DNA from: Tritrichomonas musculus
Lineage: Eukaryota; Parabasalia; Tritrichomonadida; Tritrichomonadidae
Reading direction: 5' to 3'
Length of the DNA stretch: 64,000 nt
Assembly (NCBI GenBank): GCA_039105265.1
Contig: JAPFFF010000004.1
Span: forward strand, 4,712,001-4,776,000
Shown here: positions 1-36,043 of the stretch, one piece after another
How the letters are laid out: every line of letters starts with the position of its first letter
How positions within the stretch are numbered: the first letter of the stretch is position 1
Program-made: the position numbers and the translations under genes
The notes under the pieces: model-generated
Databases searched by the model: none
Told to the model about the DNA's origin: nothing
What the model saw: the letters and a program-made list of their open reading frames with translations, nothing else

Positions 1-1
1 A

Positions 2-2750: not shown

Positions 2751-2752
2751 AA

Positions 2753-14875: not shown

Positions 14876-14883
14876 TGGTATTA

Positions 14884-17247: not shown

Positions 17248-17252
17248 TATAT
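17248..17252 (+). repeat. Left target-site duplication TATAT
   Basis: TATAT immediately precedes the left terminal repeat and is repeated immediately after the right one (36039-36043). Polintons usually make 5-6-bp duplications. In AT-rich DNA this could occur by chance, but its exact placement at both termini supports it. Confidence 0.7.
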
Positions 17253-17793: not shown

Positions 17794-17880
17794 TTGTGAA
17801 ATAAAATGTTATTCTCTCAAAATTTTATTTTTATTCTTTTAATTTTAATTTTTTATCCGCAATACAAATAACACCAAAAA

Positions 17881-18351: not shown

Positions 18352-18376
18352 AACCTTAATATTTTTTTGTATTCAA

Positions 18377-20413
18377 ATGAGTAAAACAAAACTGATACTC
18401 GAACCAGGTCATGTAATGCAAGGCAATAATACTCAAAAATTATTAGGATACTGTAATAGATTGAACAATGAATTAGGGTTTAATATTAGCACTACTTCAG
18501 GAGGATATGTACTTAGGGACAGTTCATATGCTACTCGTTTAATAGAACCTCTTAACGAATTTCAATTTGGTTTACGTGAAGGGAATAGTGTTAATGATAC
18601 TACCATGAATAGATTCATTGAAAGGGTTCAAAATGAAAATCCATATGATAGACCAATAGATTATTCTGATTTAAAAGATTTTAATGATTATCAGTTTAGT
18701 AAATGGGCTAGAACAAATAATGGTGTTTATAATGAACTCACAACAAGAATTAATTCCCAAACACTTGAACAATATAAAAAGACATATCCAAAAAATGTTA
18801 TAAAAGCTATCATTAGAATACTCAATGAACATGATTTTGCATCAAATGATAATATTCACCATAAATATGTAAGGCGTATATATCAAGAAAGTCTGGACCA
18901 TTTCGCAAATAGAGTATATCCAGAAAGTGAAGGTGCTTCTAGCGACAATAATATTGTTCCCCCTTCTCGAACAGCGTCTGCTCCCCCTTCTCAAACGGAG
19001 TTTAGGTCTGCTCCTTTCTTTAGATATGGTGCGGCAGAGACTTTTCCAGAATTGAATCCATTGAATGTATTAAGAAGAAGACCCCCTAATGACAGCGCCG
19101 CTGGCCTTGGCTTTGCCAATGAAACAACTCCAATTATAGATAACACTAATATTAATAATAACAATAATACATTTTTATTTCAAAATCAAATGGCACAAGA
19201 AGTAAATTTACAGGATTTAGTTAATGCCTACAATTCTTTTGCTCAACATCCGGTAGATATCAATACAATAGCGAACAATGTCCAAGAAATTCAAAGAATA
19301 GCAATTGAATCAATAAACCATTTTCGACATAGACCAGGTAGGGTTGGTGGACCAAAACAAGGAATGAATGCATTATGGGATATCGTTCTAGACAATAAAA
19401 AAGACATCAAAAGAAGAAGAAAAGCAATGACCCTTGCTGGAGCTCAAGATATTGTTAATAAACGAAATGCAGCAAATCCTAATAGTCAACCATGGTCTGT
19501 ATCAGATGAAGATGTTAACGGGGATAATATTCCAGATATTATTATTAAAAATGGTAGCAACAATCCAATATACATTAATGGATACACAACAGCAAAGTCA
19601 GATTGGCCTGCACGATTTCATTTCTATACAGATTATGATGCAGCTGCTAGAAAACAATATAGGAATGAACATGGCGGAAAATCAATCACTGTTCCAATAT
19701 ATCTCAAGGAGAAATTGAATTATAGTTATAATAATGACCTCAATGGAAATCCACATCATTTAGGTGAAATGACAGGATATACAATGCCTGAAGCATGGAG
19801 AGATTACAAGTTAGATGGGTACAGTTTTGTTAAGGAGAAGCGAAAGAATGCCTTTGCTAGATTCCGCGATTATGTTGTTAGTCATGTTGTTGAAGATGTT
19901 ATTAACGCACTTAGGACTCAAAACATATTAGATATCACTCCTAAATTCAAGGCAAGACTAATTATGATGGCTACGTCAAAATTATGGAAACACTATATAC
20001 TTAGTACAGTTGCTCGTAAACGTGGTTTCACCTCAGTAGAACATGAAGAGTTTAAGAAATGGTGTAAAAAGAGTGAAGGAAAACGAATAGTTGATGCAGA
20101 AGTTTCAAGCCTATTATTACATGTTCTTCATACTAATGGAAATAATTGGACTGTTGAACAAAGAGCGCAACTCAGAAATAAGATTTATAATGATTTCGGA
20201 CACGCTATGGTAGAATCAGCTCAAGAAGTCAATGAACATGAAAGGGAAAATTTGATACACGATAGATATACTGGACAAGAAAGACAGGGCATGCAGTACG
20301 ACCATCGAAATGATGAAGAAGGAGGTGAATGGCACGATGGTATCACACAAGAATATAATCGAGAACAGAATGGCGAATGGAACTTAGAAGATGATGAGGC
20401 ATTTTTAAACTAA
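18377..20413 (+). CDS. Large Maverick structural-type protein with EF-hand-like loop
   Basis: This 678-residue protein uses the ATG at 18377, which follows TATTCAAATG; an in-frame upstream ATG at 18341 overlaps the previous gene and is less likely. The N-terminal third is helical and charged. The centre (about 190-260) is Asn/Pro/Ser-rich and probably disordered. At about 377-388 lies a DVNGDNIPD loop resembling calcium-binding D-x-N-x-D-x-x-D loops, followed by a conserved-looking INGYTTAKSDWPAR...Y block. The C-terminus is acidic and Gln/Glu-rich. No counterpart is visible in element 1, where the matching region is off-window. It is possibly an internal capsid or core protein; function unknown. 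A double-hairpin insertion lies at 19093-19119. Confidence 0.7.
   Translation: MSKTKLILEPGHVMQGNNTQKLLGYCNRLNNELGFNISTTSGGYVLRDSSYATRLIEPLNEFQFGLREGNSVNDTTMNRFIERVQNENPYDRPIDYSDLKDFNDYQFSKWARTNNGVYNELTTRINSQTLEQYKKTYPKNVIKAIIRILNEHDFASNDNIHHKYVRRIYQESLDHFANRVYPESEGASSDNNIVPPSRTASAPPSQTEFRSAPFFRYGAAETFPELNPLNVLRRRPPNDSAAGLGFANETTPIIDNTNINNNNNTFLFQNQMAQEVNLQDLVNAYNSFAQHPVDINTIANNVQEIQRIAIESINHFRHRPGRVGGPKQGMNALWDIVLDNKKDIKRRRKAMTLAGAQDIVNKRNAANPNSQPWSVSDEDVNGDNIPDIIIKNGSNNPIYINGYTTAKSDWPARFHFYTDYDAAARKQYRNEHGGKSITVPIYLKEKLNYSYNNDLNGNPHHLGEMTGYTMPEAWRDYKLDGYSFVKEKRKNAFARFRDYVVSHVVEDVINALRTQNILDITPKFKARLIMMATSKLWKHYILSTVARKRGFTSVEHEEFKKWCKKSEGKRIVDAEVSSLLLHVLHTNGNNWTVEQRAQLRNKIYNDFGHAMVESAQEVNEHERENLIHDRYTGQERQGMQYDHRNDEEGGEWHDGITQEYNREQNGEWNLEDDEAFLN
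19093..19119 (+). repeat. Tandem hairpin pair inside the 678-residue gene
   Basis: CAGC-GCC-GCTG is followed by TTGGC-TTT-GCCAA. Both are perfect stems with 3-nt loops and GC-rich in an AT-rich gene. The start ATGACAGCNNNGCTGGC is shared with the unit at 31083. It encodes an in-frame NDSAAGLGFAN stretch in a low-complexity region. Confidence 0.6.
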
Positions 20414-20462
20414 ACATAATATGAGTCTTTTTTTACACATAATATAATCTATTAATATGTAA

Positions 20463-21281
20463 ATGAATAACCTAAAAGACGTCAATTATTTAGTATCTGA
20501 TACACTAAAACAAAATAAAGACAATTTATCAGGTGCATTAATAGAATCTATTCACGAAGATATTCATATTAAATATAATTCAGTAAATGTTATCGTAGGC
20601 AAACAAAATTCTGGTAAAACTGTTATTGCTCTACAAGAGATAATCAAAATAGGATTAATAAAAACACACCATTTATTAGTCTATATCACGAAGAATGGAG
20701 ATGAAAACGATAGGAGCTGGCAAACATTGAAACATCTAATTAAAATGCCATATATTACAATCTCTGAGAAAAATGCAGTTGATTTTATGACAGAATTGAT
20801 AGCTGCAAAAAATCTCTATTATCTTGTCAAAAGAGAACACTTAGAAGAAAGATTAGATGATGGACAAAAAAATGATATGTTTAATGTTTTACATATACAA
20901 GACTATAATAAAGAGTATCTTCACACATTAGTACTTTTTGATGATATCTCTAATAGCAAACTATTTTCATCAGAAGAATCATATTTTAGCCAACAACTTC
21001 GTAGATGTAGGCACACAAATATCACATACTTCTTGTTAATCCAAGGATGGAAAGGAATTAAGCCACATATCAAAAATGAGATAACAACTTTGTTTGTATT
21101 TCCATGTTTTAATCGTCAACAGTTGCATTATATATATTCACAATCAGCTAGTAATTTAGATTTTGAAGAATTTTATAATTTATATAGACAGCTTGCAGAA
21201 GAAAAAAATATTTATCCTGATTCACATTCATGCTTAATCGTTCAGGTATCAGAAGGCGGTGAGACATCGCTTACTTTGTAA
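20463..21281 (+). CDS. FtsK/HerA-type (A32-like) genome-packaging ATPase
   Basis: This 272-residue P-loop ATPase is expected to pump element DNA into capsids. Walker A GKQNSGKT lies at about 46-53 and Walker B LVLFDD at about 156-161. A downstream QLRRCRHTNITYFLLIQ stretch fits the strand carrying the sensor residue and the arginine finger region. Length fits the 250-300 residues of Polinton packaging ATPases. Its last 40 bp overlap the 3' end of the convergent minus-strand gene. It starts at ATG 20463 after TATGTAAATG. Confidence 0.88.
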   Translation: MNNLKDVNYLVSDTLKQNKDNLSGALIESIHEDIHIKYNSVNVIVGKQNSGKTVIALQEIIKIGLIKTHHLLVYITKNGDENDRSWQTLKHLIKMPYITISEKNAVDFMTELIAAKNLYYLVKREHLEERLDDGQKNDMFNVLHIQDYNKEYLHTLVLFDDISNSKLFSSEESYFSQQLRRCRHTNITYFLLIQGWKGIKPHIKNEITTLFVFPCFNRQQLHYIYSQSASNLDFEEFYNLYRQLAEEKNIYPDSHSCLIVQVSEGGETSLTL

Positions 21282-21619
21282 GAGTCTACATAGCAGTTGC
21301 TGTCAACTTGATTATTAGGATTTAAAAAATGAATAATATTATTTATTGTTTCTTTTATCTGTTTTATCTCTTGTTTCAATTCAGATATCTCACTATTTTT
21401 TTGCTCTATAATATTCTCTTCTTTAATCTTCTTTAACATTAAAACATTTTTTATTTTTGTTATGTGATATCCTTTTATGTAATACATTTTGTTTAATTTA
21501 TGCGTTGTAAGTGAATCCATATCATTTTTATGCTTGTTATAATACAAATTAAATTCATCAACAGTATCAAACTCTTTAGTATACTTTGAAATAGGTTCAA
21601 TTATTTTCACATCGTTCAT
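21242..21619 (-). CDS. Conserved Maverick coiled-coil protein
   Basis: This 125-residue protein has an N-terminal module (FDTVDEFNLYYNKHK...LNKMYYIKGYHITKI) followed by a Lys/Glu coiled coil (about 65-97) and an acidic Pro-ending tail. The EF-x-x-YY-x-x-x-K and LNKxYxIxGYxIxKI patterns look like a small helical nucleic-acid-binding fold recurrent in trichomonad Mavericks; that recurrence is recollection, not tested here. It is convergent with, and overlaps by 40 bp, the packaging ATPase. Start ATG is at 21619. Confidence 0.65.
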   Translation of the reverse strand: MNDVKIIEPISKYTKEFDTVDEFNLYYNKHKNDMDSLTTHKLNKMYYIKGYHITKIKNVLMLKKIKEENIIEQKNSEISELKQEIKQIKETINNIIHFLNPNNQVDSNCYVDSYKVSDVSPPSDT

Positions 21620-21641
21620 TTACATTTGAAATAAATTTAAA

Positions 21642-21971
21642 TTACTTCAATAATGGTATATCAAATCTTCCTGGATTAAAATACTGGGCATTCACAGGTC
21701 CATTACTAGTTTGTCTGATACCCACCCCATTAACACCTAAAGACTTTCCTTCGAAAGGCCCTGCCAAAGGCAGCGACTTATTGCCCGCAAATTTCCCTGC
21801 GTAGTTGCCTATTTTATTGATAACATTTCCTGCTGTCCCACCAATCGCGCCTCCAATAACTGGAGCTACTTTTGATACAATTTCTGCTCCTTTTTTAAGT
21901 ACTGGTAATGCTTTTCCAATAATATTCTTTGCACCGCTAATCAAATTTTTAAACCAACTTCCAAATGCCAT
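21642..21971 (-). CDS. pVI-like small capsid-associated protein
   Basis: This 109-residue protein begins with an amphipathic basic helix (MAFGSWFKNLISGAKNIIG), followed by a Gly/Ala/Val-rich hydrophobic stretch (about 35-60, VAPVIGGAIGGTAGNVINKIG) and a basic/Gly C-terminus ending NPGRFDIPLLK. This layout resembles the membrane-active minor core proteins of adenovirus-like and Polinton particles (pVI/pX type). Lying next to the capsid gene supports a particle role. Two adjacent palindromes interrupt the sequence at 21744-21773. Confidence 0.6.
   Translation of the reverse strand: MAFGSWFKNLISGAKNIIGKALPVLKKGAEIVSKVAPVIGGAIGGTAGNVINKIGNYAGKFAGNKSLPLAGPFEGKSLGVNGVGIRQTSNGPVNAQYFNPGRFDIPLLK
21744..21773 (+). 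repeat. Tandem hairpin pair, copy 1 of a 38-bp dispersed unit
   Basis: CTTTC-CTTC-GAAAG is followed by CTGCC-AAA-GGCAG. Together with flanking GA...CGA/TTA, the roughly 38-bp block is nearly identical to 26303-26341 in another gene of opposite orientation. Differences fall mostly in the loops and spacer. Confidence 0.75.
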
Positions 21972-22101
21972 TTCAATTCAAGTAAACATAAACAAAGTTT
22001 AGTTTACTTTGACAAACTTTTTTTGTTTGGCCTTTGCTTATGCAAATACTGTCGTAAATAAAATGTAAATTATGATAAACATTATTTTTATATTTAAACA
22101 A
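21972..22101. promoter_or_regulatory. Divergent region with three palindromes upstream of the capsid gene
   Basis: The 130-bp gap between the minus-strand pVI-like gene and the capsid gene holds three stem-loops. AAGTAAAC (21980) pairs with GTTTACTT (22002). CAAAC pairs with GTTTG around 22012-22029. TTTGC-TTAT-GCAAA lies at about 22033-22046. The capsid start is preceded by ATTATTTTTATATTTAAACA, the TTATTTTT leader seen at several genes. Promoter function is inferred. Confidence 0.5.
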
Positions 22102-23991
22102 ATGACTTATTACAACGCACAAACAAAGAATTTAGGAAATGATGAGGGTGATGTTTTATCATTCTTTCAATCAAAATTACGTAATCTTATACAAAGAAAT
22201 GGTGGAGATAACACATTTTCGTTTGTCATGGAGGAATTCAAAGATAAAGATGCACCATTACCTGTAGGTACAAAAACACGTATAAAATTAACACATTCTG
22301 GGCACACAATTACACAAATTGAGAAGTCATTCACGACTATTCTTTTAGATTTTATCATAAAATTATCAAAACCAATTGACGTATCTGCTGACACACATGG
22401 ACTCATGAAAATATTCGTTGGATTCAAAAATGCTGTAGAATTCTATGAAGATTGTAGATTTTGGATTAATGATAAACTCTTAGGTGCATATCGTCAAGAT
22501 GAATTACAACGTGAATCATTTGCATATAATTCTATTAAGCCAAGAGATGCAAAAGCAACATCAAAATATTCACATTCTACATGGGAAAATGTTTCACAAT
22601 TCTCTCCATCAATTTGTGGCTGTTATGTAGACTTAAAAGATATTGCAGATGGACAACCACATAAATTTACCATCGAATTGACTATACCATTTGTAGACCA
22701 ATTAGCACTTCAAGCATGGCAATTATATCCTAATGCAATCTGTGGAGAAATAGAAGAAGAAGTAAAAACAAGTTTACGCGCACTTGTATGGGCACAAGTG
22801 AATCCAAATGTAGTTAAAGAAACACTTCAATTTTTAGAAGATAAAGAAATAGATGAAGAGATGCCTGCTGTTATACCTATTACACGTAAATTCACACAAA
22901 TTGGTAGACCATCAGTGATTGTCTCTCATTATTCATCAAATCCAACTCCTTCACAAAAGCTTCATATAGAGTATCAAAGATATAAAGGCGTAAATGTATA
23001 TGATGATGATGTGCTAGAGCATCCAACAATTGATTTTGGATACACAGATGAAGAATTTACTAAATATAAAGTATCACGTGATGATGTTAATAAAAAGGAA
23101 TTTGCAGAATTAATCGCAGCAGCTAATCCTGATAAACCATTAGATGCTGGCGACACTGTTAAAATCATTAAAAGTGAATTAAAAGGTGCATTATTAGCAA
23201 CAACAAAATCTGATTCAATCAACCTGAAAACAGAAAAGATAACACTAGATGTTCTTGGTGGAACTATTCAATTAGGTCGCTCAAATTTAGCAGGATTTGG
23301 ATTAAAACAAGATGTTTATAATGGATTATATCGTGAATTGCAAACACCATTATTGATTCCATCACAAGAACTCACAAGAGAAATATTTGAAGGAACAGCA
23401 AAGGTAAATGGATTAGAAATCAGTAAAAGTATTCCATTACGTAATGCAACAAATATCACAATGATGTTTCCAAAATCACCTGCAGACATCACATGTTTCG
23501 ATAATATTATGTATCAAAATGTGCAATTAGTTGTTAATAAAAGAACATATCCAGATACCGAATTTGCTAATACTTGTGCAGCCAGGTTCTATCAACATCA
23601 ATTGATTGCAAACGAGTTAGATGGAGCGTTAGAAGCAACACAAGAATTTGAAGATAGTTTTACACAGCCATTAAACGACCCAACAACTGGTAAACGTTAT
23701 TTAAATTGTCGTTCTGACGGAACATCATTTGGTATCAATTTTCAACTCGAAAGAAGTAATGCAGGATATGTATTCGATGGATTAGACACAGGCAGCACTT
23801 CAATAACTGTTACATTTAGAGGTCAGCCAATGTATCGTGGAGAAGATGACACATATTTTATTCCCGATCCAGAATACCCAAATATGCATCCACCATCACC
23901 AGAAGCATGGATATGTTCAGACACATATTTCACATGGAGTGTAAATGGTGTTGAATACTATCAAACTGGCGTGCCAGCAGGGAAAGAGTAA
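22102..23991 (+). CDS. Maverick major capsid protein (double jelly-roll type)
   Basis: This 629-residue protein starts at ATG 22102 (AACAAATG); an in-frame ATG at 22072 would add ten hydrophobic residues and sits in the leader. It is beta-rich with short charged turns. It aligns along its length with the capsid protein of element 1 (blocks VGFKNAVEFYED, ITRKFTQIGRP, ITMMFPKSPAD and the following Tyr/Asn stretch). About 100 extra residues sit mainly in the middle (about 295-400) and at the C-terminus. Codon choice is highly regular, as expected for an abundantly made protein. It should form the hexon-like lattice of the particle. The call rests on context and length, not a catalytic motif. Confidence 0.75.
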   Translation: MTYYNAQTKNLGNDEGDVLSFFQSKLRNLIQRNGGDNTFSFVMEEFKDKDAPLPVGTKTRIKLTHSGHTITQIEKSFTTILLDFIIKLSKPIDVSADTHGLMKIFVGFKNAVEFYEDCRFWINDKLLGAYRQDELQRESFAYNSIKPRDAKATSKYSHSTWENVSQFSPSICGCYVDLKDIADGQPHKFTIELTIPFVDQLALQAWQLYPNAICGEIEEEVKTSLRALVWAQVNPNVVKETLQFLEDKEIDEEMPAVIPITRKFTQIGRPSVIVSHYSSNPTPSQKLHIEYQRYKGVNVYDDDVLEHPTIDFGYTDEEFTKYKVSRDDVNKKEFAELIAAANPDKPLDAGDTVKIIKSELKGALLATTKSDSINLKTEKITLDVLGGTIQLGRSNLAGFGLKQDVYNGLYRELQTPLLIPSQELTREIFEGTAKVNGLEISKSIPLRNATNITMMFPKSPADITCFDNIMYQNVQLVVNKRTYPDTEFANTCAARFYQHQLIANELDGALEATQEFEDSFTQPLNDPTTGKRYLNCRSDGTSFGINFQLERSNAGYVFDGLDTGSTSITVTFRGQPMYRGEDDTYFIPDPEYPNMHPPSPEAWICSDTYFTWSVNGVEYYQTGVPAGKE

Positions 23992-24086
23992 ATAAAAAGA
24001 TTATATATAAAAAAATTTTTTTTATATCTAGAATCATAATATGAGTCATTAAGTGAAAACATCTAATTGAAAAGAACAAAGTTCTT

Positions 24087-24419
24087 TTAATACTCTAGCT
24101 TCAAAAACAATGTAAAATTATCTGGTTTTATCTCGTTTCCTTCAGCATCAGTGAACCATATTTTGAAATCTCTTTTTGTTCCAACATATTCATACTTGCG
24201 ATTATCATCAGGTGGCACTACATTTGCGTACCATACTAAACTATCTTCATATTCATCTCTTTGAATAAAGCTACAATGTATTTCAGTTTCACCATCAAGA
24301 TATCCATTACATGTGGCTCTACAATATTGAAAAGATATATAGCGTTTATTCAACGAATTACTAAACTCGGATGGCAATAAATTATTGTATTTCTTCGTGA
24401 TAAAGTACGTTTTTACCAT
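24087..24419 (-). CDS. Small capsid-associated candidate beside the fibre gene
   Basis: This 110-residue beta-rich protein has two Cys near the middle and the C-terminal pattern FKIWFTDAEGNEI...FTLFLKLEY, like the last strands of penton-type minor capsid proteins. It is divergently paired with the fibre gene across 17 bp, just as the 248-residue candidate is paired with the fibre gene of element 1. It is less than half that size, so one may be a reduced or partial version of the other, or they may be unrelated. Confidence 0.5.
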   Translation of the reverse strand: MVKTYFITKKYNNLLPSEFSNSLNKRYISFQYCRATCNGYLDGETEIHCSFIQRDEYEDSLVWYANVVPPDDNRKYEYVGTKRDFKIWFTDAEGNEIKPDNFTLFLKLEY

Positions 24420-24436
24420 TCTTTATAATATATAAA
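24420..24436. promoter_or_regulatory. 17-bp divergent start region
   Basis: TCTTTATAATATATAAA separates two divergent ATGs. It contains a near-perfect palindrome TTTATA-ATA-TATAAA, so both genes see TATA-like bases directly before the ATG. This is the second of three such tiny divergent gaps. Confidence 0.6.
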
Positions 24437-27400
24437 ATGACTGCAATCATAACAAAACAAAATGCATTTGATAAAGCATTTATTAGTGGATACAATGCAG
24501 GTGGAAATGGAGAATTTGATAATATTCATGTTAAACAAGATGCTATAATTGAAGATAATCTTATTGTTAAAAATAATAATATCATTGATATATTATCACA
24601 AACATCACAAATATTAGATGACCACGATAATAGAATAACAATACTAGAAAATAAACCTGATTCACAGAGTAATTTAGAATATGTAGATGGCTTTGATGAA
24701 TTCATAATAGATGTTAAAACATTATCTAAAAAAGAAACAAATGAATGTAATATATTGGAAATCGCAGTTGATTTACCAGAAACGTATTCAGGAAATGTAT
24801 TCGCAATTACTACATCTTTGGGTTCAGGAGTGATATCATTTGCAAATAATAAATTTACTAATCCTCGCATAGACTATTCTGATGGACAATATGTTGTATC
24901 TTATATTGAAAATGATGATTATGCAAGATTATATATGAGTAAAGATATTTTAAGCGATCCATTTGACCTATTCACTAAAGGATTCATAAGAATAACATTT
25001 GTTGCTCCAATTAAACAGACTATTAATAAAAAAGACAACAAAATAATAAACTTTAAATGTAATACTATAGATGCAGATAATTGTTTTAAATTATTTAGGT
25101 CTCCATTACCAGATTTCTATGAAATAAAGTCAATATCACAAGATGACAATTATTATATTGCTTATTGGGGCTATGATGAAGGAACAGAAGAATTTAACAC
25201 ACTTATTGATGGACAAACATTTGAATTCAATGATGAAGTATTTGGCACAACATTTAAGCTTACAAAGAAAGGAGATACGTGGATTGGAAACAATTATTGT
25301 GTACATATTCCGGAATCATTAAAGATAATACAAAATAGCGATAATGAAGCTAGAATAACAATAGCCAAAAATGATGCTAATAAATTTACTTTATCACATC
25401 TTGTTAAATTCCATTCAGACCAGAACGCATTAACATTTCTCATTAATGAAGGATTATTGAAAATAAACAAAGGAAAACTAGATTATGCAGGTGAAAATGA
25501 TAAAGAATGGTGGATAGATATCGTTTGTGAGTTCGATAGTGGAGGCCAATGGGTTGGAGGTGATTATATTGCGACATTAACGCTAAATGGGAAAATATAC
25601 GAAATAAAAGTTAATGTAGATGCAACAATTGATTCACCCCATTATAAAGTAAATAGTAATAATTATTTTGAATATATTGGATATCATCATACCGAAAAAT
25701 TGATTAACAATAAAGGGATTAAACTATTTATGTCCACTAATCCAAATCTTATATTTAAAATCGCTGACGTAGAATATAATAATGAAAATACATTTGAATA
25801 TCTCAATGGATGTGGTTATTATAATGTTGTTCCTAAACCCGAATCATGCACGACCCTTTTTACAAACTATAATATTCAAACATCTGGTGTGGTAATTGGT
25901 GAAAACATTGAGAGTCATATGTTTGTGTTAAATTCTTTAGGGAATACAGTTGATGTTGCACTAAATGATATATCTCAATTACAAAATTATTGTAAACAAT
26001 TAGAATCACAAATAGAAAGTATGTCAAATAAAGTTAACTGGTTTGATATTTTACAAGGTATTGTTGATATTGGTACTATGTTAATAGGATTTGGTCCAGG
26101 ATTAATGCGAATAGGTGCTGCAGGAATTGAATCATTAAGTAGACTCTCTTTTGCTAAATCAACTGTGAAAGAAATAGAATATGTTGATGAAATAATACAC
26201 GATGTTGACGTTTTATCACCTGGCGTTATTGAGAAACAACTAGATTTTGCATCAGAGACAACAATAATTGGTTCAGATAATTGCTATAAATACTATCTAT
26301 TTGACTTTCCTAAGAAAGACTCTGCCAATGGCAGCGAATTAAAATCAGAATCTAAAATAGATGTATCATTTATAGTTGATTCAGACGGAGAAGTTATTAG
26401 TATTAACAATTATGATGTAGATTCTGATGGAAATATTGTTGCGGTAAATTCTGTAGTTGCTTGTAATTTAATATACGAATATCCCTATTTAATGGTATTT
26501 TCTAAAAATAAGCCATCAAATGTTTCATATAAATATATCCCTAAATCGAAGTCAGTTAAGTTAGCATTAGGGGAAACATTAACCAATAATCAATTATTAT
26601 CAGCAGCTGCGACAAAAAAATTAATTGAGAATCATAAGCAAAATATGTTAAGTGAAATCCCTACTGTTGATTTATCAAATTATGCAACACTTGAGAATCT
26701 TGATGAGTATGCTAAAGCACAGGACTTACAGTCTTATTTGAAGAAACAAGACATATTATCAACCGAAAAAATAACACAAGAATTGTCAATAGCTACAAAA
26801 TTCGTAAATGGAACAACAAATGATGAGGATAAAAGAACTTATATAACAAATTTGGATAGAGATTTATGCAACATATTAATGAAATCATCACTTTTTGTGA
26901 AAGGCTCTTGTAATAATGAAGATATTTCAGGAGAATATTTGTATGATAGTGAAGACACGGAATATTATTATTACAAGAAAGGCGAAAATACTTTTACTAT
27001 ATACTTTTTCTATTACAATGGAACATTCAGATATAATAGTAATTATGTTTTGGATTTAGAATCAGTAAGTTATTCATACGAACCTGAAGTTTATGACAAA
27101 TATTGTATTCCAAATATGAACTTCGTAAAAGATAATTATGCATTAAAATCTGATATACCTGAACCTGTTGATTTGACTAAATATGTAGCAAAAAATGATG
27201 ATGGTTCATTAACAATAGCTACTACGTTTACAAATAATTCTCCATCATTAATAGTGAATAATCCATATTATCCAGATATTAGATTATGTAATGAAAATAG
27301 TTATGTTTCATTAAGATATTCACCTTATACAGAGGAATTTATGATAAAATATAAAGATGTTGATATGATAAATTGCACATATAAATCTCAAAAATATAAA

Positions 27401-28405
27401 ACTACAATAAAAGACCAATTAGTGGTTGATGGTCGAGTTATGATAAAAGGTTCAGATTTAAGTATATTTGATATTTATTCAACAAGTTCAGCAAAACAAG
27501 CACTTATTAATTTTGGATTAGATTTAGCAAATAAAAGTGAAATATTATATGAATTAGTTAATAATATTCCAAAATTATCTTTATACTTAAATAGTTCAAA
27601 AATAATAACAGTTAATAAAGATAAAGTTGAAATTAGTACTGATTTATATAAAAATAATGATAAATATTTAACTGAATCAGAATGTGATACTAAATATTTA
27701 GCTAAAAATGATGATGGCTCATTAACAATTAATACTACCGAAAGTAATATTGCAAGTTTCTTTAGTTCTATTGATTCTAATACACTTACTTTATTTAGAT
27801 TTGGATATAATGATACTTATAATACTGTCTTTATGTATAGGTCTTCAAAAACTGCTGATACTGGTGAAGTATTTATATATGTTGATGGTCATAGATTTCA
27901 ATCATTTAGCATGTTTGGTACTGCAAGAAATACAACAATTGATTCAAATTTATATGTTTCTGGCAAAATAACATCAAATGGTTCAAATACGATTACTCAT
28001 TATGCGCCAATTGAAGCTGGTGAAAATATTGAAGATTACGCACTTGGGAAACCTGTATTTATGTCTGGTCATGTGTATAAAAATGTTAATGGTTCATTCG
28101 TGAGTTCTACTGCAACAGATTCAGTTGATTGCATTAGTAGTGTTAAAATAAATGGTTCATGGAAAGAGTATATTGGTGTAATCACTAGTATTGATAAAGA
28201 AAAAAATAACATTACATTCGCTACACATGGAGACTATTTATTTTATGTTGATGATGCTAATTTATATGCAATAGGTGATGTGATTCTATATGATGGAAGA
28301 ATATTGGATGAAGATTATGCATTAACATTAAAGATTCAACAAAGTATTGTAGGAAAAGTGAGTGCAAAAATAAATGAACATATATTAGCGTTGTTTAAAG
28401 CTTAA
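24437..28405 (+). CDS. Fibre-like Maverick structural protein
   Basis: This 1322-residue protein is homologous to the 1719-residue fibre of element 1 (shared VVPKPESCTTLFTNYNI block; INFKCNTIDADNCFKL block near 205). The beta-rich N-terminal half is followed by a coiled coil (about 500-535) and a Gly-rich hydrophobic segment (about 540-567). Repeated AKNDDGSLTI units (about 910-930 and 1090-1102) and PEPVDLTKY linkers recall phage fibre shafts. The C-terminal domain (about 1190-1322) begins APIEAGENIEDYALGKPVF and looks like a compact fibre-end domain. It is probably a particle spike or fibre. A double-hairpin unit lies in frame at 26305-26334. Confidence 0.75.
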   Translation: MTAIITKQNAFDKAFISGYNAGGNGEFDNIHVKQDAIIEDNLIVKNNNIIDILSQTSQILDDHDNRITILENKPDSQSNLEYVDGFDEFIIDVKTLSKKETNECNILEIAVDLPETYSGNVFAITTSLGSGVISFANNKFTNPRIDYSDGQYVVSYIENDDYARLYMSKDILSDPFDLFTKGFIRITFVAPIKQTINKKDNKIINFKCNTIDADNCFKLFRSPLPDFYEIKSISQDDNYYIAYWGYDEGTEEFNTLIDGQTFEFNDEVFGTTFKLTKKGDTWIGNNYCVHIPESLKIIQNSDNEARITIAKNDANKFTLSHLVKFHSDQNALTFLINEGLLKINKGKLDYAGENDKEWWIDIVCEFDSGGQWVGGDYIATLTLNGKIYEIKVNVDATIDSPHYKVNSNNYFEYIGYHHTEKLINNKGIKLFMSTNPNLIFKIADVEYNNENTFEYLNGCGYYNVVPKPESCTTLFTNYNIQTSGVVIGENIESHMFVLNSLGNTVDVALNDISQLQNYCKQLESQIESMSNKVNWFDILQGIVDIGTMLIGFGPGLMRIGAAGIESLSRLSFAKSTVKEIEYVDEIIHDVDVLSPGVIEKQLDFASETTIIGSDNCYKYYLFDFPKKDSANGSELKSESKIDVSFIVDSDGEVISINNYDVDSDGNIVAVNSVVACNLIYEYPYLMVFSKNKPSNVSYKYIPKSKSVKLALGETLTNNQLLSAAATKKLIENHKQNMLSEIPTVDLSNYATLENLDEYAKAQDLQSYLKKQDILSTEKITQELSIATKFVNGTTNDEDKRTYITNLDRDLCNILMKSSLFVKGSCNNEDISGEYLYDSEDTEYYYYKKGENTFTIYFFYYNGTFRYNSNYVLDLESVSYSYEPEVYDKYCIPNMNFVKDNYALKSDIPEPVDLTKYVAKNDDGSLTIATTFTNNSPSLIVNNPYYPDIRLCNENSYVSLRYSPYTEEFMIKYKDVDMINCTYKSQKYKTTIKDQLVVDGRVMIKGSDLSIFDIYSTSSAKQALINFGLDLANKSEILYELVNNIPKLSLYLNSSKIITVNKDKVEISTDLYKNNDKYLTESECDTKYLAKNDDGSLTINTTESNIASFFSSIDSNTLTLFRFGYNDTYNTVFMYRSSKTADTGEVFIYVDGHRFQSFSMFGTARNTTIDSNLYVSGKITSNGSNTITHYAPIEAGENIEDYALGKPVFMSGHVYKNVNGSFVSSTATDSVDCISSVKINGSWKEYIGVITSIDKEKNNITFATHGDYLFYVDDANLYAIGDVILYDGRILDEDYALTLKIQQSIVGKVSAKINEHILALFKA
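26305..26334 (+). repeat. Tandem hairpin pair, copy 2 of the 38-bp dispersed unit
   Basis: CTTTC-CTAA-GAAAG is followed by CTGCC-AAT-GGCAG inside the fibre gene. It is nearly the same as 21744-21773, with changes confined to loops and the short spacer. Both lie in frame within a coding sequence, here giving PKKDSANGSEL. Confidence 0.75.
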
Positions 28406-28429
28406 ATGGCTATCTTTAAACTTATCCCG

Positions 28430-28499
28430 GCAACTTTGTTGCAGTCATGTCGCTAATTTTAGCGACTCGTTTACGAGGCTCTCAAACTGCAAGTTTGAG
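28430..28499. terminator. Cluster of four hairpins between convergent genes
   Basis: Four perfect stem-loops follow one another: GCAAC-TTT-GTTGC (28430), TCGCTAA-TT-TTAGCGA (28450), CTCG-TTTA-CGAG (28466) and CTCAAACT-GCA-AGTTTGAG (28481, covering the last codons of the minus-strand gene). They lie between the 3' ends of the fibre gene and the Cys-Cys orphan. They may act as a bidirectional 3'-end or insulator signal, or may be two stacked double-hairpin insertions. Confidence 0.55.
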
Positions 28500-29135
28500 C
28501 GATATGCCATACTTTATAAACTCTGTATAAACATTATTATAAGCATATTTTAATTCCTCTGATTTACCATCTTTTGTTATTAATATTTTATCTATTTTGA
28601 TAAATTTTGAAACACTAACTGCACAACATCCAGGTTCATCATCTTCTAAAACAAAATCAACTTTATCACACCTAGTTAACAATTTTATCATATTCATTAA
28701 TAGAGTTGATTTGCACACAACATAAGAGTTAATCCTTAAAGGGTTATCAGCATACATTTCAACTAACATTTCTAAAAATCTATTTTTTTGTTCAAGTGTA
28801 TCCAGCTCATTTCCTAAATCTGTTAAACCTCTGTTTGCCATGCAAACTTCGCTCTGCGAATCTCGGGTAATGTTGTTTGTTTGAGGTGTGTATTGAGAAG
28901 CATATTGTGCCGTCATCTGTGTAGGCATAGTTGGGGGAGGTATAGTTGGAGGGGGAATAGTAAAATTTACATTATTAGGTGCACACTGATTAATGGGTTG
29001 TATATTTGGATATGCCACAGGCGGGATACTCTTATTGGGAGATACTTTAATTTCGATATTAGTGTTTTGTTCTTGTTTAACACTTGCATCATTCTCACTT
29101 GATAATATTCTTGCTTGACGTAAAGTATTAGACAT
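28482..29135 (-). CDS. Conserved Maverick orphan with Cys-Cys core
   Basis: This 217-residue protein starts at ATG 29135, which is preceded by TTTATTTTTTTATAAAATG; an in-frame ATG at 29162 overlaps the stop of the upstream gene. The N-terminal half is disordered and Pro-rich (TIPPPTIPPPTMP). The C-terminal half contains VDFVLEDDEPGCCA, which matches the 176-residue orphan at 2220-2750. No known domain was recognised. A double-hairpin unit (28833-28860) lies at the border between the halves. Confidence 0.7.
   Translation of the reverse strand: MSNTLRQARILSSENDASVKQEQNTNIEIKVSPNKSIPPVAYPNIQPINQCAPNNVNFTIPPPTIPPPTMPTQMTAQYASQYTPQTNNITRDSQSEVCMANRGLTDLGNELDTLEQKNRFLEMLVEMYADNPLRINSYVVCKSTLLMNMIKLLTRCDKVDFVLEDDEPGCCAVSVSKFIKIDKILITKDGKSEELKYAYNNVYTEFIKYGISLKLAV
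28833..28860 (+). repeat. Tandem hairpin pair inside the Cys-Cys orphan gene
   Basis: GTTTGC-CAT-GCAAAC is directly followed by TTCGC-TCT-GCGAA, both perfect with 3-nt loops. It lies in frame in the linker between disordered and folded parts. Confidence 0.65.
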
Positions 29136-29158
29136 TTTATAAAAAAATAAAGGTTTAT

Positions 29159-29404
29159 TCATAATGTATACAAATTGTTAATAGCTCTATTTAACAAATT
29201 TCTGACCTTCATATTATATTCATATTTGCGTTGAATCTTATTACGTTTTGCTATTTTTTTTGGATCAGTTGGTATAGGTTCCTTTAATATTTTTCGATAA
29301 TATTGAAGACGTGATTTGATTTGTTTAAGTGTTGATGATGCAAATGTTTTTCTTTCGTGCCATTGTTTAAGAGGTGGTAGTGTGAGGCAATCTTGCTGGC
29401 TCAT
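29159..29404 (-). CDS. Small basic Maverick protein
   Basis: This 81-residue, Lys/Arg-rich, helical protein (IKSRLQYYRKILKEP; KKIAKRNKIQRKYEYNMKVR) lacks cysteines or membrane segments. It is divergent from the integrase gene across 17 bp. Its high positive charge suggests nucleic-acid binding; it may be the functional analogue of the basic protein at 3744-4136, though they do not align. Confidence 0.55.
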   Translation of the reverse strand: MSQQDCLTLPPLKQWHERKTFASSTLKQIKSRLQYYRKILKEPIPTDPKKIAKRNKIQRKYEYNMKVRNLLNRAINNLYTL

Positions 29405-29421
29405 TTAATACTAAATAAAAA
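29405..29421. promoter_or_regulatory. 17-bp divergent start region upstream of the integrase
   Basis: TTAATACTAAATAAAAA separates the ATGs of the small basic protein and the integrase. Read either way it gives an A/T-rich AAATG-type context. This is the third example of a 16-17-bp divergent gap. Confidence 0.6.
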
Positions 29422-31158
29422 ATGAATACTAGTAATTTACTTTATAATAACACGGATAAAATAATAAATGCTATAATAAATGAACAGAGATACAAAGATG
29501 ATATAGCAGATATTGAAGGAAATAATGATTTTATCTTTATTTACAATACAGTTAGAAAATGGATATGTAAAGAAATACATGACGCATTAACTGAAGATTT
29601 TCATTATAAACATGATACTTGGGATTATAGAAATATTACATATTATTATGACAAAATATTTACAGAGAATGATAATATACAAATAAGGAATTTTATATCA
29701 ATTAACTACAAAGAAATTCATGAAAAATTACTTGAGAGTATAGCATATCAGAGGCATAAAAACTATATGAATACATATCAAAAGTGTAAAAATAGATTAT
29801 TCGAAAAACTGAATAACAAACAAAAATATACTATAAGTCAAGCACGTTCATTGTTATCAGAAAATAATAAACTTCCAATAACTGAAGATGATTTTAGAAG
29901 ATTATATAATATATTTGTTGAAGAATGGAATAAAAGACAAGAATCTGAGACACCACAAAGACACATATTAAGAGACACATTCACTGATAAACTAAATGAT
30001 TTTGTTGTATTTAATCATGAAAGATTATTAAATAAAGATGAATTCGCTAGAGTTAGTCAAAATTGGGGGCCAACATCATTATCATTAGATGAATGGTATG
30101 ATAGATATGTTAACAAATTTTATTATCAGCCAACAACGCATACTACCTATACTATTCCAGAAGAGCAAAATTATATTGGATTTAAATCAGAGAACAAAAT
30201 AAGAGCATTACAAAGAATATTTCCTGGTAAGAAGGTTAATATATATGAACATACATCATATTTCCCATTAAAATCAAATAAAAAGTATCAATTGCATAAA
30301 GTATCATCGAGATATTCATATATTATTGATTTGATGTTTGTAGATAAACTGTGTTATCTTGTTATGATAAACGTTAACACAAGATATTTATATGTTGAAT
30401 TAGTGAACCAAATTTTGTTTGACAATGACTCAGAAAATAGTGAGAAAAGACAACGCTTTGCTAAATATGAAAAATCAGCTGATAACTATTTAAAGACACT
30501 CGATAAAATAATAAAATCAGGTGTCATCATTAAGCATTTAACATTTGATGGAGAAGGTTCGTTTAACTCGAGAAAGGCACAAAATTATTATAATTCTCAT
30601 GGTATTCATTGGAGAACTGCACCAAGAATGAAAATGGGTAATTATCCAGATTTTATGAAACGTGAGCAGAAACAAACAAAAACTGACCCTATGCATAGTT
30701 CATTAGGGTTGATTGATAGAGTTATTAGAACATTAAGAGATATGGCATATAACATGAGAGTAGGAATTATTACACCATCTATTATGAATGAATTAGTGAG
30801 ACAATATAATAATGCACCACATAAAACATTATCTAAATATGCTGGTAAAAGTGTTAGTCCAAAACAAGTAAATGATGATAAAGAACTTGAATCATATATT
30901 GTTATGAATATATGTAAAGAGAACTATAATATTATGATGAGTGATGGATTTTATTTAAATAAAGGTATGAGTGTTAAACTGTATAATGAAAAGGATGGAA
31001 TGATGAAAAGAAGGACAAATGTGCAACCAGGTAAATATAAAGTTATTGGGTTTGCTAATGGATTATATAGAGTTGTTGATGACAGCAAAGCTGGCTCCGA
31101 TAAAATCGGCGAAAAAAATAATATTCAATCAATACCTAGATTTAAATTAGATTATTGA
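29422..31158 (+). CDS. Retroviral-like DDE integrase of Maverick
   Basis: This 578-residue protein inserts the element into host DNA. The RNase H-like core begins at about 296 (YSYIIDLMFVDKLCYLVMIN) with the first acidic residue at D303. The second is D376 in LTFDGEGSF. The third position falls in GLIDRVIRTLRD (D432), where most integrases have Glu in a similar ER-x-x-RTLK motif, so this may be a DD-D site. The N-terminal 200 residues are helical. A C-terminal SH3/chromo-like part (about 510-550, GKYKVIGFANGLYRVV) precedes a basic tail. A double-hairpin unit near 31083 sits in that tail. It starts at ATG 29422 after the 17-bp divergent gap. Confidence 0.88.
   Translation: MNTSNLLYNNTDKIINAIINEQRYKDDIADIEGNNDFIFIYNTVRKWICKEIHDALTEDFHYKHDTWDYRNITYYYDKIFTENDNIQIRNFISINYKEIHEKLLESIAYQRHKNYMNTYQKCKNRLFEKLNNKQKYTISQARSLLSENNKLPITEDDFRRLYNIFVEEWNKRQESETPQRHILRDTFTDKLNDFVVFNHERLLNKDEFARVSQNWGPTSLSLDEWYDRYVNKFYYQPTTHTTYTIPEEQNYIGFKSENKIRALQRIFPGKKVNIYEHTSYFPLKSNKKYQLHKVSSRYSYIIDLMFVDKLCYLVMINVNTRYLYVELVNQILFDNDSENSEKRQRFAKYEKSADNYLKTLDKIIKSGVIIKHLTFDGEGSFNSRKAQNYYNSHGIHWRTAPRMKMGNYPDFMKREQKQTKTDPMHSSLGLIDRVIRTLRDMAYNMRVGIITPSIMNELVRQYNNAPHKTLSKYAGKSVSPKQVNDDKELESYIVMNICKENYNIMMSDGFYLNKGMSVKLYNEKDGMMKRRTNVQPGKYKVIGFANGLYRVVDDSKAGSDKIGEKNNIQSIPRFKLDY
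31083..31109 (+). repeat. Tandem hairpin pair near the integrase C-terminus
   Basis: CAGC-AAA-GCTG is followed by CCGAT-AAA-ATCGG, perfect stems with 3-nt loops. It begins ATGACAGC like the unit at 19093. It codes for DDSKAGSDKIGE, a hydrophilic insertion between the SH3-like region and the last residues. Confidence 0.65.
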
Positions 31159-31160
31159 TT

Positions 31161-31907
31161 TTATTCTTTATAGATTCCATTGTATTGTTTATATAGTCGA
31201 CCATATTTTAATACATAAATATCATTTTCTAATATACAATCTAATGCTTTATCATATTCATCATCATAAACAGCTTCATCAATTCTTAAAAGCTTTATTT
31301 TATGTTCTCTACAATATTCATCTTTTAACTTACTATTTTCAACTTGTTTAATATTACTTCTATGGCTTCTATCATCAATTTCAACAAGCAAATTAATTTC
31401 TGGTATATAAAAATCAAATCTGAGTAAATAATTATTTTTACTCTTCAGTCCTTCAAATGTTTTTTGTGTTTGAAATTCAATATGTTTATTTTCCAAATAT
31501 TTTCTAAATTTTTGTTCATTCTCATTAATAAATAAATGTGGTCTTGACTGATGGTGTATCCAATCATCTAAAGTTGTTTTGTAATATGAATCATTATATT
31601 TATATTTTAATTTTTGTTTTGTGCTTCTATATTCATCAATTAATTCACAACCTTCTTTTTGAAATAATTCATTAACTTTTTCTTTATTCCATTTTTGGTG
31701 TTGTTTTGTATCTCTATTCCCTCCTTTTAAATGGGGTCTTGAAGGTCGTTCTTTTTTCATCCAATCATACCATCTAACAGAATATTCATTGTTTTCATAT
31801 GTATATTTAATTCTTTCATCACCTCTATGGTATTCGCTTATTAATATACAATTTTCTTTAGCCATTTCATTTGCAACCATTTGTGTGTTCCATCTTGTCC
31901 TGTTCAT
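31161..31907 (-). CDS. PD-(D/E)xK-type endonuclease with two N-terminal repeats
   Basis: This is a 248-residue protein. Residues about 130-225 show the small-nuclease layout: ENEQKFRKYL helix, then FDFYIPE and LLVEIDDRSH strands (about 160-180), then a Lys/Asp helix and IKLLRIDE. The catalytic set appears to be Asp in FDF and Glu/Asp in EID, with Asp replacing the usual Lys of ExK. The N-terminus holds two related modules of about 60 residues (ILISEYHRGDERIKYTY...W and ELIDEYRSTKQKLKYKY...W), probably DNA-binding. It is similar in style to phage-borne homing-type nucleases. It lies 2 bp after the convergent integrase and upstream of nothing else on its strand. Confidence 0.65.
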   Translation of the reverse strand: MNRTRWNTQMVANEMAKENCILISEYHRGDERIKYTYENNEYSVRWYDWMKKERPSRPHLKGGNRDTKQHQKWNKEKVNELFQKEGCELIDEYRSTKQKLKYKYNDSYYKTTLDDWIHHQSRPHLFINENEQKFRKYLENKHIEFQTQKTFEGLKSKNNYLLRFDFYIPEINLLVEIDDRSHRSNIKQVENSKLKDEYCREHKIKLLRIDEAVYDDEYDKALDCILENDIYVLKYGRLYKQYNGIYKE

Positions 31908-31939
31908 GTCTTTGTCTTGTTATAAAAAAATATTTTTAA

Positions 31940-34900
31940 TTAATATTTAGCATAATCAAAATATTTATTATCATCTCCTTCTTCATAGTCTGTTTTTATA
32001 CATCTTTCAAATTTTTTCCTTGTTGATACGGTCATATTTTTGTTCATCTCAAAGCTTGGTTGACCTTTTGCTAAATCGAATGTTATAGAGTTCCCATTAT
32101 ATAATGCTTCATAAAGTTTCATAACATCTCCATTAAAATCTTCATTATATTTGTATTTAATAGAATTTTGTGTAAGTCCTTTACCTCTAATAACATAATC
32201 GATATCACCAGTAGAATCTGTTATTTTATGAGTATACATTTTTTTCATTAAAAAGTATGATTCAATAGCTTGAGGCATTTCTTTATGCCCATTTATCTCT
32301 GGGAAATCACAATGGAATTGACCAAGATTTTTACCAATTAATTCTCTATTGTATTTTTTATTGAATTCTTTTTGTAATAGCTTTAAATCATTAGATTTAA
32401 TCATAAATGAATCTGTATCTTGGTAATAAATGTGGCATCCGATATCAAAAGCTAAACACATTACTTCATTCATGATTCTCTTAGACATAGACAAAACTTG
32501 AATACCTAACAATGAAAAATTAAAATGTTTATCTATTTGTTTTAGAGTCTTAACTGCGTGGATATTAGAGTTGTTCAATTGAATATCTTCAACTATTTTA
32601 TTATAATTTTTTTGCCAAAATTTATCTAATTCATCTCCTTCACGTAAATATTTATAATCTTTTTCAACTGGTTTCTCTATTGTTTTACCATAACATGAAT
32701 TCATAATAAGTTTATAGAGATTTTGTAATGGATTATTTTGCTTTTTATATTCAAGTCTTTTATTGAAGATATCACTGATGCAATCTCTTATTCTATAATC
32801 TTTTTTACCATCCCAATAGTATCCACGTAAAATGTTAAACTCTATCTTTTGAAACTCTATGTAATCCTCTAATGTGATATTATCAACAATCATTTTTATT
32901 GATTCACCTTCTGGTATATAATCATTGTTGCAGTTTAAGCCGTTTATCTTTTGTACAATCAATGGAAAAGCATAATGTTTATTTATTTTTGTTATCTCAA
33001 TTTCTACAATATATGCGGATTGTTTAGAAAGAAATTCTAGGTTTAATTGTTCTGGTTGAATCACTTTAGGTTTTCCTTCAACTGTATACAATCTTTTCAT
33101 TGCAGAAGGATATAAACTAACTGCATCAAAATCTGATAGTGGTTTAGTTGTATGCCACTTTTTATTATAAGCAGTCATGCATCTACCACCATATATTGCT
33201 TTTGAACAGAAATGCCTAACATGTCCACCTAATTTATAAAGATTTCCATTAGGATAATATACTTTTTGGTTAAACACTTCATTTGCAAGAGATGATATAC
33301 TAATAAATTTATAAAGGTTAATATTAAAATTTTCTTTAAATCCTTCACGCAATTTTTCAAATCCAATTCTCAAAATATTAACATCTTGTTGGCAATAGAA
33401 TTCAGCATATTTGTACATGTCAAAGTGTTTTTCGTCTATTCTGCATCCTTCAATCTTATCGATATTAGAGTTAAATAAAATATAATCTTCATCTGTCCAC
33501 TGTTTATCTTCATTTAAGCCTGCTTCGCTTATTGTGCCAATATTTGTTTTTAGTCTTTCTAGTGTATAATATTTATATGGAAATATCTCTTTTTGTATTC
33601 CTTCTATATTAAACATAGATGGCAATTGTGATAATTTACATGATAATATTGGTAATGAATCTCTAAGATGAATCGTTTTATTATTATATTTTATATCTGC
33701 CATCATAGTTTTTGAACCTTTTATGATAGATTTACATAAGCCAAAGTTTGCAAGCATTCTAATATCATACGCTAAATTATGGAAATACACAACTGATTCA
33801 TCATCTAGATAATCTAATAATTGTTTATTACAATCTTCACCTTTAAAACATTTTTTGTGATTTCCATTTGCACTATGTACAACACACATATAAGGCTTGT
33901 GGATGCAAGGCATCCCGGGACTTTGTCCTTGAACACTAGTACTTACATCTGCTTCAAAATCTGCATACCAATAACTTTTTTCTCCATCTTTTTTATTAAT
34001 CTTTTTCTTAGGTTGTTCTATTAATTTTGTGCATTGTTCATCATTATAATCAAGGTCAATAAGGTCAATATTACTGTCTACATCTTTATAGAATATTGTG
34101 TTTAAAACCTTATATTGTCCAAATGTAATAGGAACAAAATAATTGTTCTTCATTAATATTCTCACTAGGTCAGAAGAGTTAATAAAATATCGTGCGTTTC
34201 TCCAGTGGTCGCTATTGTATTCTTTATTGTATTTGTCCTCTGTGCACTCACTTAAATGATTAATATAATATGTACTAAAAGGTGTTTTCTCTTCAAGGAA
34301 ATAATGTTTATTGTATATATTCATTGTGTGTGTTCTATTTGGTTCAGCATTCTCTATACCTAAATAATGTTTTTCTTTGTTATTTTTAGTAGATTTAACA
34401 GAGCGTTTTTTATTTATTCCATTTGCATCTTCATCTATGAATGATAATTTAATATGCAGTTTGAACTCCATACATAATTCATTTAGTGATTTTTGTGAGA
34501 GATATCGTGTGTTAATTCTTAATCGCATTTTATTTAGTGTAGCATCGTCATAACATCCAGTTTGTTGTAAAGCATAAATAAAACAACAATCATCTAATTC
34601 TTTTCTTTGTTTACCTTTTTTGTTTACTAGAGATGTGAATATTTGTAATTTTTTAAGATATTTTTTAACATTTAACGGGCAATTCTTATTTACTAAATAT
34701 TGAAAGAAACTACCACCAACATCGTTGTAAACGAGTTTGCCGGATGGCAAATCATTTTTAGCTTTAATACCTTTAAATTCATTAAATTTGACAGCACTAA
34801 ATAGACTCCATTCTGGTATCTTTTCTGCACCTTTTTCATAAAAATATTCTGGCACAACATTCTCAATATCAAATATAAAGTGATTTTCGGTAAGATTATT

Positions 34901-35422: not shown

Positions 35423-35497
35423 TTTTTAAAAAGAATAAAAAATTATTAAATATAAAATTATTTATACCTGTTATTATTTTTTATATCACATATCAGT

Positions 35498-36038: not shown

Positions 36039-36043
36039 TATAT
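36039..36043 (+). repeat. Right target-site duplication TATAT
   Basis: TATAT directly follows the right terminus and matches 17248-17252. Confidence 0.7.

Follow-up and report, generated by a model that had tools for sequence, protein, structure and literature searches.

The stretch analysed here, hereafter the window, comprises 64,000 nucleotides from the genome of the mouse-gut protist Tritrichomonas musculus (contig JAPFFF010000004.1, positions 4,712,001 to 4,776,000) and contains two Maverick elements, the second of which, element 2, carries a series of short insertions built of two adjacent GC-rich stem-loops. Element 2 encodes a DNA polymerase (PolB; Pfam match DNA_pol_B_2, 5.4e-43), an A32-type ATPase (profile match, 1.2e-6) and an integrase-like protein recognised by eye only. 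Pfam searches at 0.01 returned nothing for the integrase-like gene, the 639-aa, 226-aa and 678-aa genes, the fibre-like gene and some small genes, nor for two sampled peptides; genes without a Pfam match are named from inspection or position. The GC content of element 2 is 28.7%, that of the hairpin cores 44-67%. The limits of the element and its double hairpins are listed in Table 1.

A preliminary description of this sequence had listed eight blocks with tandem hairpins in element 2 and proposed that they form a family. All eight were found in place, the last one starting at 34722 according to both the scan and the insertion boundary. An independent scan of the interior of element 2 (17789-35503) for adjacent perfect stem-loops (stem of at least 4, loop of 3-4, gap of at most 6) returned precisely these eight sites. 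In 100 dinucleotide shuffles in 500-nt blocks per threshold, the mean number of double hairpins was between 0.15 and 0.46 at four thresholds with 8 observed; the largest single shuffle gave 5, and none of the 100 reached 8. At the strictest threshold, 6 were observed compared to a shuffle mean of 0.09. The GC-rich tandem pairs were thus not reproduced by the shuffled controls that the preliminary description had suggested. Element 1 (1-17252) contained no double hairpin, and the remaining ~28 kb of the window contained a single one at 38390, inside a tandem-repeat gene. The shared motifs reported previously, ATGACAGCNNNGCTGGC from 19089 and 31079 and ATCCCGG...ACTTTGT from 28425 and 33912, were also correct, and beyond these the blocks 21744-21773 and 26305-26334 proved to represent one element family.

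Table 1. Maverick element 2 and the double-hairpin insertions analysed (window positions; L, sibling loci)
Feature	Position	Hairpins and spacer	Flanks	Remarks
Maverick element 2 (insert host)	17253..36038			18,786 bp; based on inverted repeats and ends read
Terminal inverted repeats of element 2	17253-17788 and 35504-36038			
Flanking direct repeat TATAT of element 2	17248-17252 and 36039-36043			outside the inverted repeats
Double hairpin	19093..19119	CAGCgccGCTG-gcc-TTGGCtttGCCAA	TGA/TGA	30-bp in-frame insertion, 678-aa gene
Double hairpin	21744..21773	CTTTCcttcGAAAG-gcc-CTGCCaaaGGCAG	AGA/CGA	33-bp insertion, 109-aa gene (- strand)
Double hairpin, 21744 family	26305..26334	CTTTCctaaGAAAG-act-CTGCCaatGGCAG	TGA/CGA	33-bp insertion, 1322-aa gene
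Nested pair	28426..28505			outer limits uncertain by about 2 bp
Nested pair, stage 1		GCAACtttGTTGC + imperfect stem		43 bp
Nested pair, stage 2	core 28466-28499	CTCGtttaCGAG-gct-CTCAAACTgcaAGTTTGAG	CGA/CGA	37 bp; inside second hairpin of stage 1
Double hairpin, 1-nt spacer class	28834..28860	TTTGCcatGCAAA-C-TTCGCtctGCGAA		27-bp insertion, 226-aa gene (- strand)
Double hairpin	31083..31109	CAGCaaaGCTG-gct-CCGATaaaATCGG	TGA/CGA	30-bp insertion, integrase-like gene (close to its end)
Double hairpin	33900..33929	GGATGCaagGCATCC-CG-GGACtttGTCC		30-bp insertion, PolB (- strand)
Double hairpin, 1-nt spacer class	34722..34751	TCGTTgtaAACGA-G-TTTGCCggatGGCAAA		30-bp insertion, PolB (- strand)
Second class, members	28834 (read as 0-1 bases apart), 34722, L037, L058, L067			
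Third class, members	33900 and 32559	CG between stems		

Sibling Mavericks were collected by searches of the same genome with the DNA around each site, and the best 40 candidates per search were scored; the filled loci L001 and L004 (26305) and L007 (21744) were chosen by motif. Each of the eight blocks was absent from otherwise intact sites in some siblings, and the blocks therefore represent discrete insertions; related Mavericks do not all carry them as conserved codons, the second point on which the preliminary description had wanted a check. At 19093, 7 of 20 loci were filled and 9 were exactly empty, with 4 more diverged loci lacking the block. The corresponding numbers were 7 filled, 12 empty and 2 diverged without block at 21744 (21 loci, one picked by motif), 9 filled and 13 empty at 26305 (22 loci, two picked by motif), and 4 filled, 14 empty and 2 diverged without block at 31083 (20 loci). 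At 28834, 2 of 16 other aligned loci were filled and 12 lacked the insert, as did 2 more, pieces of one copy, which had a different insert nearby. In PolB, the insert at 33900 was present in 6 of 29 other loci and missing in 22, one locus being uncovered, and at 34722 (29 other loci) 10 loci contained the 30-bp insert, 4 a different 39-bp insert and 13 none, with 2 uncovered. The 39-bp insert shows two stem-loops by eye, the second of which is imperfect in two of the four loci. The copies that had diverged furthest among those examined lacked the block at 33900, 34722, 31083 and 21744, which favours gain over loss at these sites.

The region 28430-28499, described previously as a run of four hairpins, is resolved by the siblings as two nested insertions of 43 and 37 bp. 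Thirty loci were fetched for 28426-28505, of which 28 could be aligned (one being the window itself, and several pairs being pieces of one copy) and 2 could not. Neither stage was present in 17 of the aligned loci, stage 1 only was found in 4, stage 2 in 5 besides the window, and another hairpin insert in 1. Within 28400-28510 the stage-1 and stage-2 inserts also provide the final codons and the stop of the 226-aa gene, translated by eye as ISLKLAT or ISLKLAV compared to ISLKIAI in empty copies, a likeness that may be due to chance.

Related inserts were found at unrelated positions. The core at 19093 is found again, with a single base altered in a loop, in another gene (locus L026, window-equivalent 17960), the core at 33900 recurs at 32559 with both loops changed (L047), and the inserts at 21744 and 26305 have the same stems in two genes on opposite strands. 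The hairpin module CAGCagaGCTG was found with three different partners (L041, L058, and L082), and at one site the second hairpin differs between L026 and L038. Such near-identical inserts at unrelated sites, together with the nested insertion and the exchange of hairpins, point to mobility. At 26305, the ten filled sequences including the window showed five different triplets in one loop (AAT, ACA, GAA, AAA, and TTT) with the rest of the core unchanged, as if this loop were hypermutable or the hairpin were able to flip.

The sibling loci and element 2 together (298.5 kb) yielded 40 distinct double-hairpin cores (loop variants counted apart), many of which have exact empty sites in other copies. 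Eleven insert positions lie in PolB, including the two of the window; one of them (32949) is without a known empty site. At the equivalent of 35167, L041 and L046 carry two different double hairpins at seemingly the same PolB codon position. The commonest class, with the hairpins three bases apart, accounts for 22 of the 40 cores and can be written, in one orientation, as YCR-hairpin-RGY-hairpin-YCR. This rule was evaluated with cores that have exactly three bases between the hairpins and 25-base flanks on both sides, counting one element per site. The 82 observations reduced to 24 sites, and 7 found only via an RSY pattern were set apart, leaving 17 independent sites found by homology. The spacer was RGY at all 17, and the flank was YCR at 15 of 17 on the left and likewise at 15 of 17 on the right; in element 2 as background, RSY and YSR make up 6.0% and 7.8% of trinucleotides, respectively. 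Left and right flanks agreed at all three positions in 11 of the 17 sites and at two or more in every one. Six events combine unequal flanks with a known empty site; in each of them one flank equalled the empty target and the other was a different YCR, namely TCG at 21744, 26305, and 31083, CCA in L046, and TCA in L021 and L041. This suggests that the element brings its own triplet rather than merely duplicating the target; alternatively, one flank may have mutated later. In the second class (Table 1) one base separates stems of 5-6 bp, and no repeat beyond AT is needed at the ends; the third class has CG between the stems, and the remaining cores show spacings of other kinds. Along the element, members of the commonest class were divided 14 vs 5 between the strands (positions, strands and spacers entered by hand), a difference that was not significant (two-sided p 0.064).

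Inside genes, only inserts that preserve the reading frame were seen. At 20 of 20 measured in-gene positions the length was a multiple of 3 (27, 30, 33, 36, or 39), whereas this held for none of the 4 inserts located between genes or ending the frame (31-32 twice, 37, and 43); the chance of such a split is 1 in 10,626 (calculated by hand). The count leaves aside in-gene positions for which no empty site was found (18344, 19139, 26690, 27672, 32949, and L053 at 35167), the 36-bp insert of L027 at the very start of the integrase-like gene, and the 45-bp difference at L082/L083, which includes a duplication. In-frame inserts add 9-13 amino acids, and the encoded peptides differ, e.g., DSAAGLGFAN, DFPKKDSANGS, and QGQSPGMPCIH. 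Most simply, insertion would take place without regard to frame, and selection would remove the out-of-frame inserts.

Genome-wide, the stem-spacer pattern CAGCNNNGCTGRSYC gave 174 matches compared to 1 for its reversed control, and CTTGCNNNGCAAGRSYC gave 132 compared to 0. When the spacer of CTTGCNNNGCAAGRSYC was left free, 174 matches were obtained (control, 10), 132 of them with an RSY spacer; among the 42 others, several are the same hairpin read from the far side. Among the first 100 places listed for CAGCNNNGCTGRSYC, 20 were chosen by hand across the list. A second hairpin directly followed the spacer in 15 of these (13 by scan; the weaker ones in L152 and L167 by eye), was disrupted in 2 (L155 and L166) and was absent in 3 (L149, L164, and L165). 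Nine of the 15 double hairpins lie in stretches matching window Maverick proteins of both elements, four of these nine being copies of one insertion. The viral_contigs collection yielded no relatives, either by one element pattern or by PolB. From 76 metagenomic and other PolB relatives, 37 chosen by length and rank were aligned; no member of the 37 spans the window insert at 496-510 with at least 10 residues, and 3 do so for 222-236. At the protein level, P0025 has 11 extra residues near residue 610 and P0027 has 10 near 606, from which we claim nothing. Another relative, P0003, a 726-aa DNA polymerase labelled uncultured Brachyspira, is 96% identical to the PolB of this Maverick over 63% of it; this is probably DNA of a trichomonad Maverick that was assigned to a bacterium by mistake in a metagenome.

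The sequences show insertion of discrete units with empty counterparts, the rule of triplets, close copies of one insert at unrelated places, nesting, genome-wide abundance of the stem-spacer motifs and keeping of the frame. We consider it very probable that the inserts are short non-coding mobile DNA elements, mostly of about 27-43 bp, which consist of two adjacent GC-rich stem-loops, are defined by shape rather than by sequence, and insert and copy in Mavericks. In the commonest class, YCR-hairpin-RGY-hairpin-YCR, one outer triplet would be the target's own; the other would repeat it exactly or, in part of the events, be a different YCR seemingly brought by the element. Insertion would depend on an enzyme acting in trans, provided either by the host or by a different Maverick gene, which would work on the feet of the hairpins on DNA or, less likely, on an RNA copy, and would join the element beside a triplet matching at 2-3 positions. 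The precise ends and the apparently flipped loops lead us to infer that the moving form is DNA. The elements would be selfish and of no use to the Maverick, an arrangement that looks like one selfish element inhabiting another. A more far-reaching version, which we put forward tentatively and with a slight leaning against it, is that this is mobile DNA recognised by shape alone. An interchangeable pair of hairpins would be held by triplets of fixed class, with the stems free as long as they pair and the hairpins exchanged singly. A dedicated enzyme would read the hairpin feet, and the element would parasitise a virus-like transposon of a nuclear genome and write short in-frame inserts into viral proteins.

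Movement could instead be RNA mediated, the transcribed hairpin pair being reverse-transcribed into new sites, as has been proposed for mitochondrial analogues in the excerpts available of PMC2800124 and PMC4478555. Small stable hairpins could survive as RNA, and the genome contains at least 150 reverse-transcriptase matches (150 being the number scored), many in long open frames, so that an argument from absence of reverse transcriptase against this route failed. We nevertheless regard it as unlikely, as the aligned inserts show no poly(A) tail and their ends are precise; a triplet loop that is reverse-complemented while its neighbour is not (AAA/TTT at 26305, ttt/aaa in 33900/32559) would also arise more easily on DNA, although this is suggestive only. 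Somewhat less probable still is an origin by replication error, in which the Maverick polymerase stalls, folds back and switches template, so that hairpins are made and copied without a dedicated enzyme. The change and apparent flipping of loops on fixed stems, the second hairpin swapped in place at one site (L026 vs L038) and the different pairings of hairpin modules (L041, L058, and L082) are in line with it. An RGY spacer between hairpins flanked by matching YCR-type triplets at all 17 sites is not what it predicts, nor are the narrow length range and the near-identical pairs at distant unrelated sites, and template switching by itself leaves the fixed classes of spacer and flank unexplained.

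Two further explanations were considered. Hairpins are stable, and some of those found here lie between genes or at gene ends (28430, 17724, and 35589), as would suit cis signals useful to the Maverick, such as terminators or packaging or origin hairpins; however, positions vary from copy to copy, most inserts found are inside genes, and many copies lack any given one, which makes such a function very improbable. Short stems are also common by chance, and seven of the eight window blocks lie within open frames without stops, so that the blocks might be taken for conserved codons of the ordinary kind or for pairing that arose by chance where GC is high. This reading was rejected and retains hardly any credibility, because no shuffle reached eight and, decisively, the siblings contain exact empty sites.

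Several points weigh against mobile elements as the explanation favoured here. No enzyme, excision product or real-time new insertion has been seen. The Y1 (HUH) transposase domain PF01797 gave no match at E 0.001 in the genome, in a search that was positive in 5 of 14 control genomes; a Y1/HUH mechanism is therefore without a candidate here, and the kinship with IS200/IS605 or REP-type elements that such a transposase would indicate is not seen. Some sibling loci are pieces of one copy, so that the counts above refer to loci and not to copies. Insertion and loss are polarised solely by diverged copies without inserts, not by a tree, and if Mavericks recombine, some of the presence/absence patterns may reflect exchange. 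Scaled by hand to 298.5 kb, the shuffle rate corresponds to ~8 chance double hairpins, and a few of the 40 cores, those without a known empty site, may be due to chance. When stems are read at their maximal length, 18 of the 40 cores are spaced differently and fall outside the YCR/RGY rule. Two filled copies deviate at 21744: L090 is flanked by TGA on both sides, with no second, different triplet, and the flanks of L105 have drifted.

The nearest known kinds are the double-hairpin elements (DHE) of fungal mitochondrial DNA and the mitochondrial GC clusters of yeast; we see a likeness only and claim no membership in these mitochondrial families. The 8.39-Mb contig that bears the inserts is too large for organelle DNA, and trichomonads are not known to have a mitochondrial genome. 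DHE have been described in Allomyces and also in Schizosaccharomyces octosporus and S. osmophilus (excerpts of PMC10085805 and PMC2800124). Like the inserts studied here, they consist of two adjacent GC-rich hairpins, are short and scattered, differ among relatives and have been proposed to be mobile (same excerpts); here, too, the paired hairpins lie in an AT-rich genome and are present or absent between close relatives. The inserts of element 2 differ in being nuclear, in residing in a virus-like transposon, in lying mostly in frame in proteins and in having YCR/RGY triplets; in Schizosaccharomyces, 20 DHE have been reported, 18 of them intergenic and 2 located in rRNA genes (excerpt of PMC10085805). 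The preliminary description had named the Allomyces elements as the closest analogue, which is apt as a likeness. It does not extend to the junctions: Allomyces DHE are without flanking duplications according to the excerpt of PMC2800124, but in the commonest class here the two flanks share 2 or 3 bases at each of the 17 sites, the class with a 1-nt spacer needing no repeat beyond AT.

Yeast GC clusters (GC42 and relatives) resemble our inserts: they are mobile, palindromic and rich in GC, short direct repeats (AG or ACT) flank them, their modules merge and shuffle, and they are present or absent between strains (excerpts of PMC4478555). A short direct repeat flanking a GC-rich palindromic body is also what we find, a likeness of form. 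The clusters differ in being mitochondrial, mostly intergenic, about 40 bp long and of other sequence, and no RGY-type spacer rule is described for them in these excerpts. Rickettsia palindromic elements are likewise palindromic mobile repeats in frame in many unrelated protein genes, but they are bacterial, about 150 bp long and each have a conserved encoded peptide (excerpt of PMC10969869); most inserts here measure 27-43 bp and their peptides differ. The Submariner-family miniature inverted-repeat transposable elements (MITEs) of Pandoravirus are short non-coding elements in the genome of a DNA virus, some of them in genes, and are, as their name says, inverted-repeat elements (excerpt of PMC5799277). 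In contrast to MITEs, no terminal inverted repeats span the inserts here; each half is its own hairpin, and the ends of the listed elements are not inverted copies. Searches of titles and abstract starts in the open-licence PubMed Central literature found no prior report of such elements in Mavericks or trichomonads, and the words hairpin and palindrom are absent from PMC10120064, which deals with integrated viruses in protists. On the basis of these open-licence searches, the elements appear to be new for Mavericks and trichomonads.

For double hairpins in organelles, mobility has been argued from comparison of relatives and the mechanism left open (excerpts of PMC4478555 and PMC2800124). The present case offers one genome with many sibling Mavericks in which filled and empty sites can be matched, so that target, junction rule, nesting and exchange are directly readable and the mechanism becomes testable. 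It also represents a route by which viral proteins, even DNA polymerase, can gain 9-13 residues in one step, in frame and repeatedly.

Several further features of the Mavericks were observed. Each terminal inverted repeat of element 2 contains a 138-nt direct repeat, the copies being 203 nt apart (35688-35825/35891-36028 and 17263-17400/17466-17603). A 248-aa gene between the integrase-like gene and PolB (31161-31907) has a weak, below-cutoff match to PvuRts1I-like nucleases. It was considered as a mobiliser and discarded, as it is not seemingly needed in cis: most siblings end before this gene though many carry inserts. With a query covering part of the gene (30700-31400) and 40 candidates scored, most matches ended before it, 3 others reached the query end inside it, and one (C9) extended part-way. 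The nuclease-like gene thus looks like an optional insertion itself. In element 1, a 241-aa gene (4224-4949) has the look of a homing-type HNH endonuclease by eye, with no Pfam match at 0.01. Long open frames with reverse-transcriptase domains, many of them 2,200-3,300 aa in length, occur every ~7-13 kb in tandem-like arrays on contigs C8, C16, C28, C58, C66, C129 and others. On contigs C15, C9, and C37, matches to parts of one element are ~20 kb further apart than in the window, which suggests that these copies hold large nested insertions.

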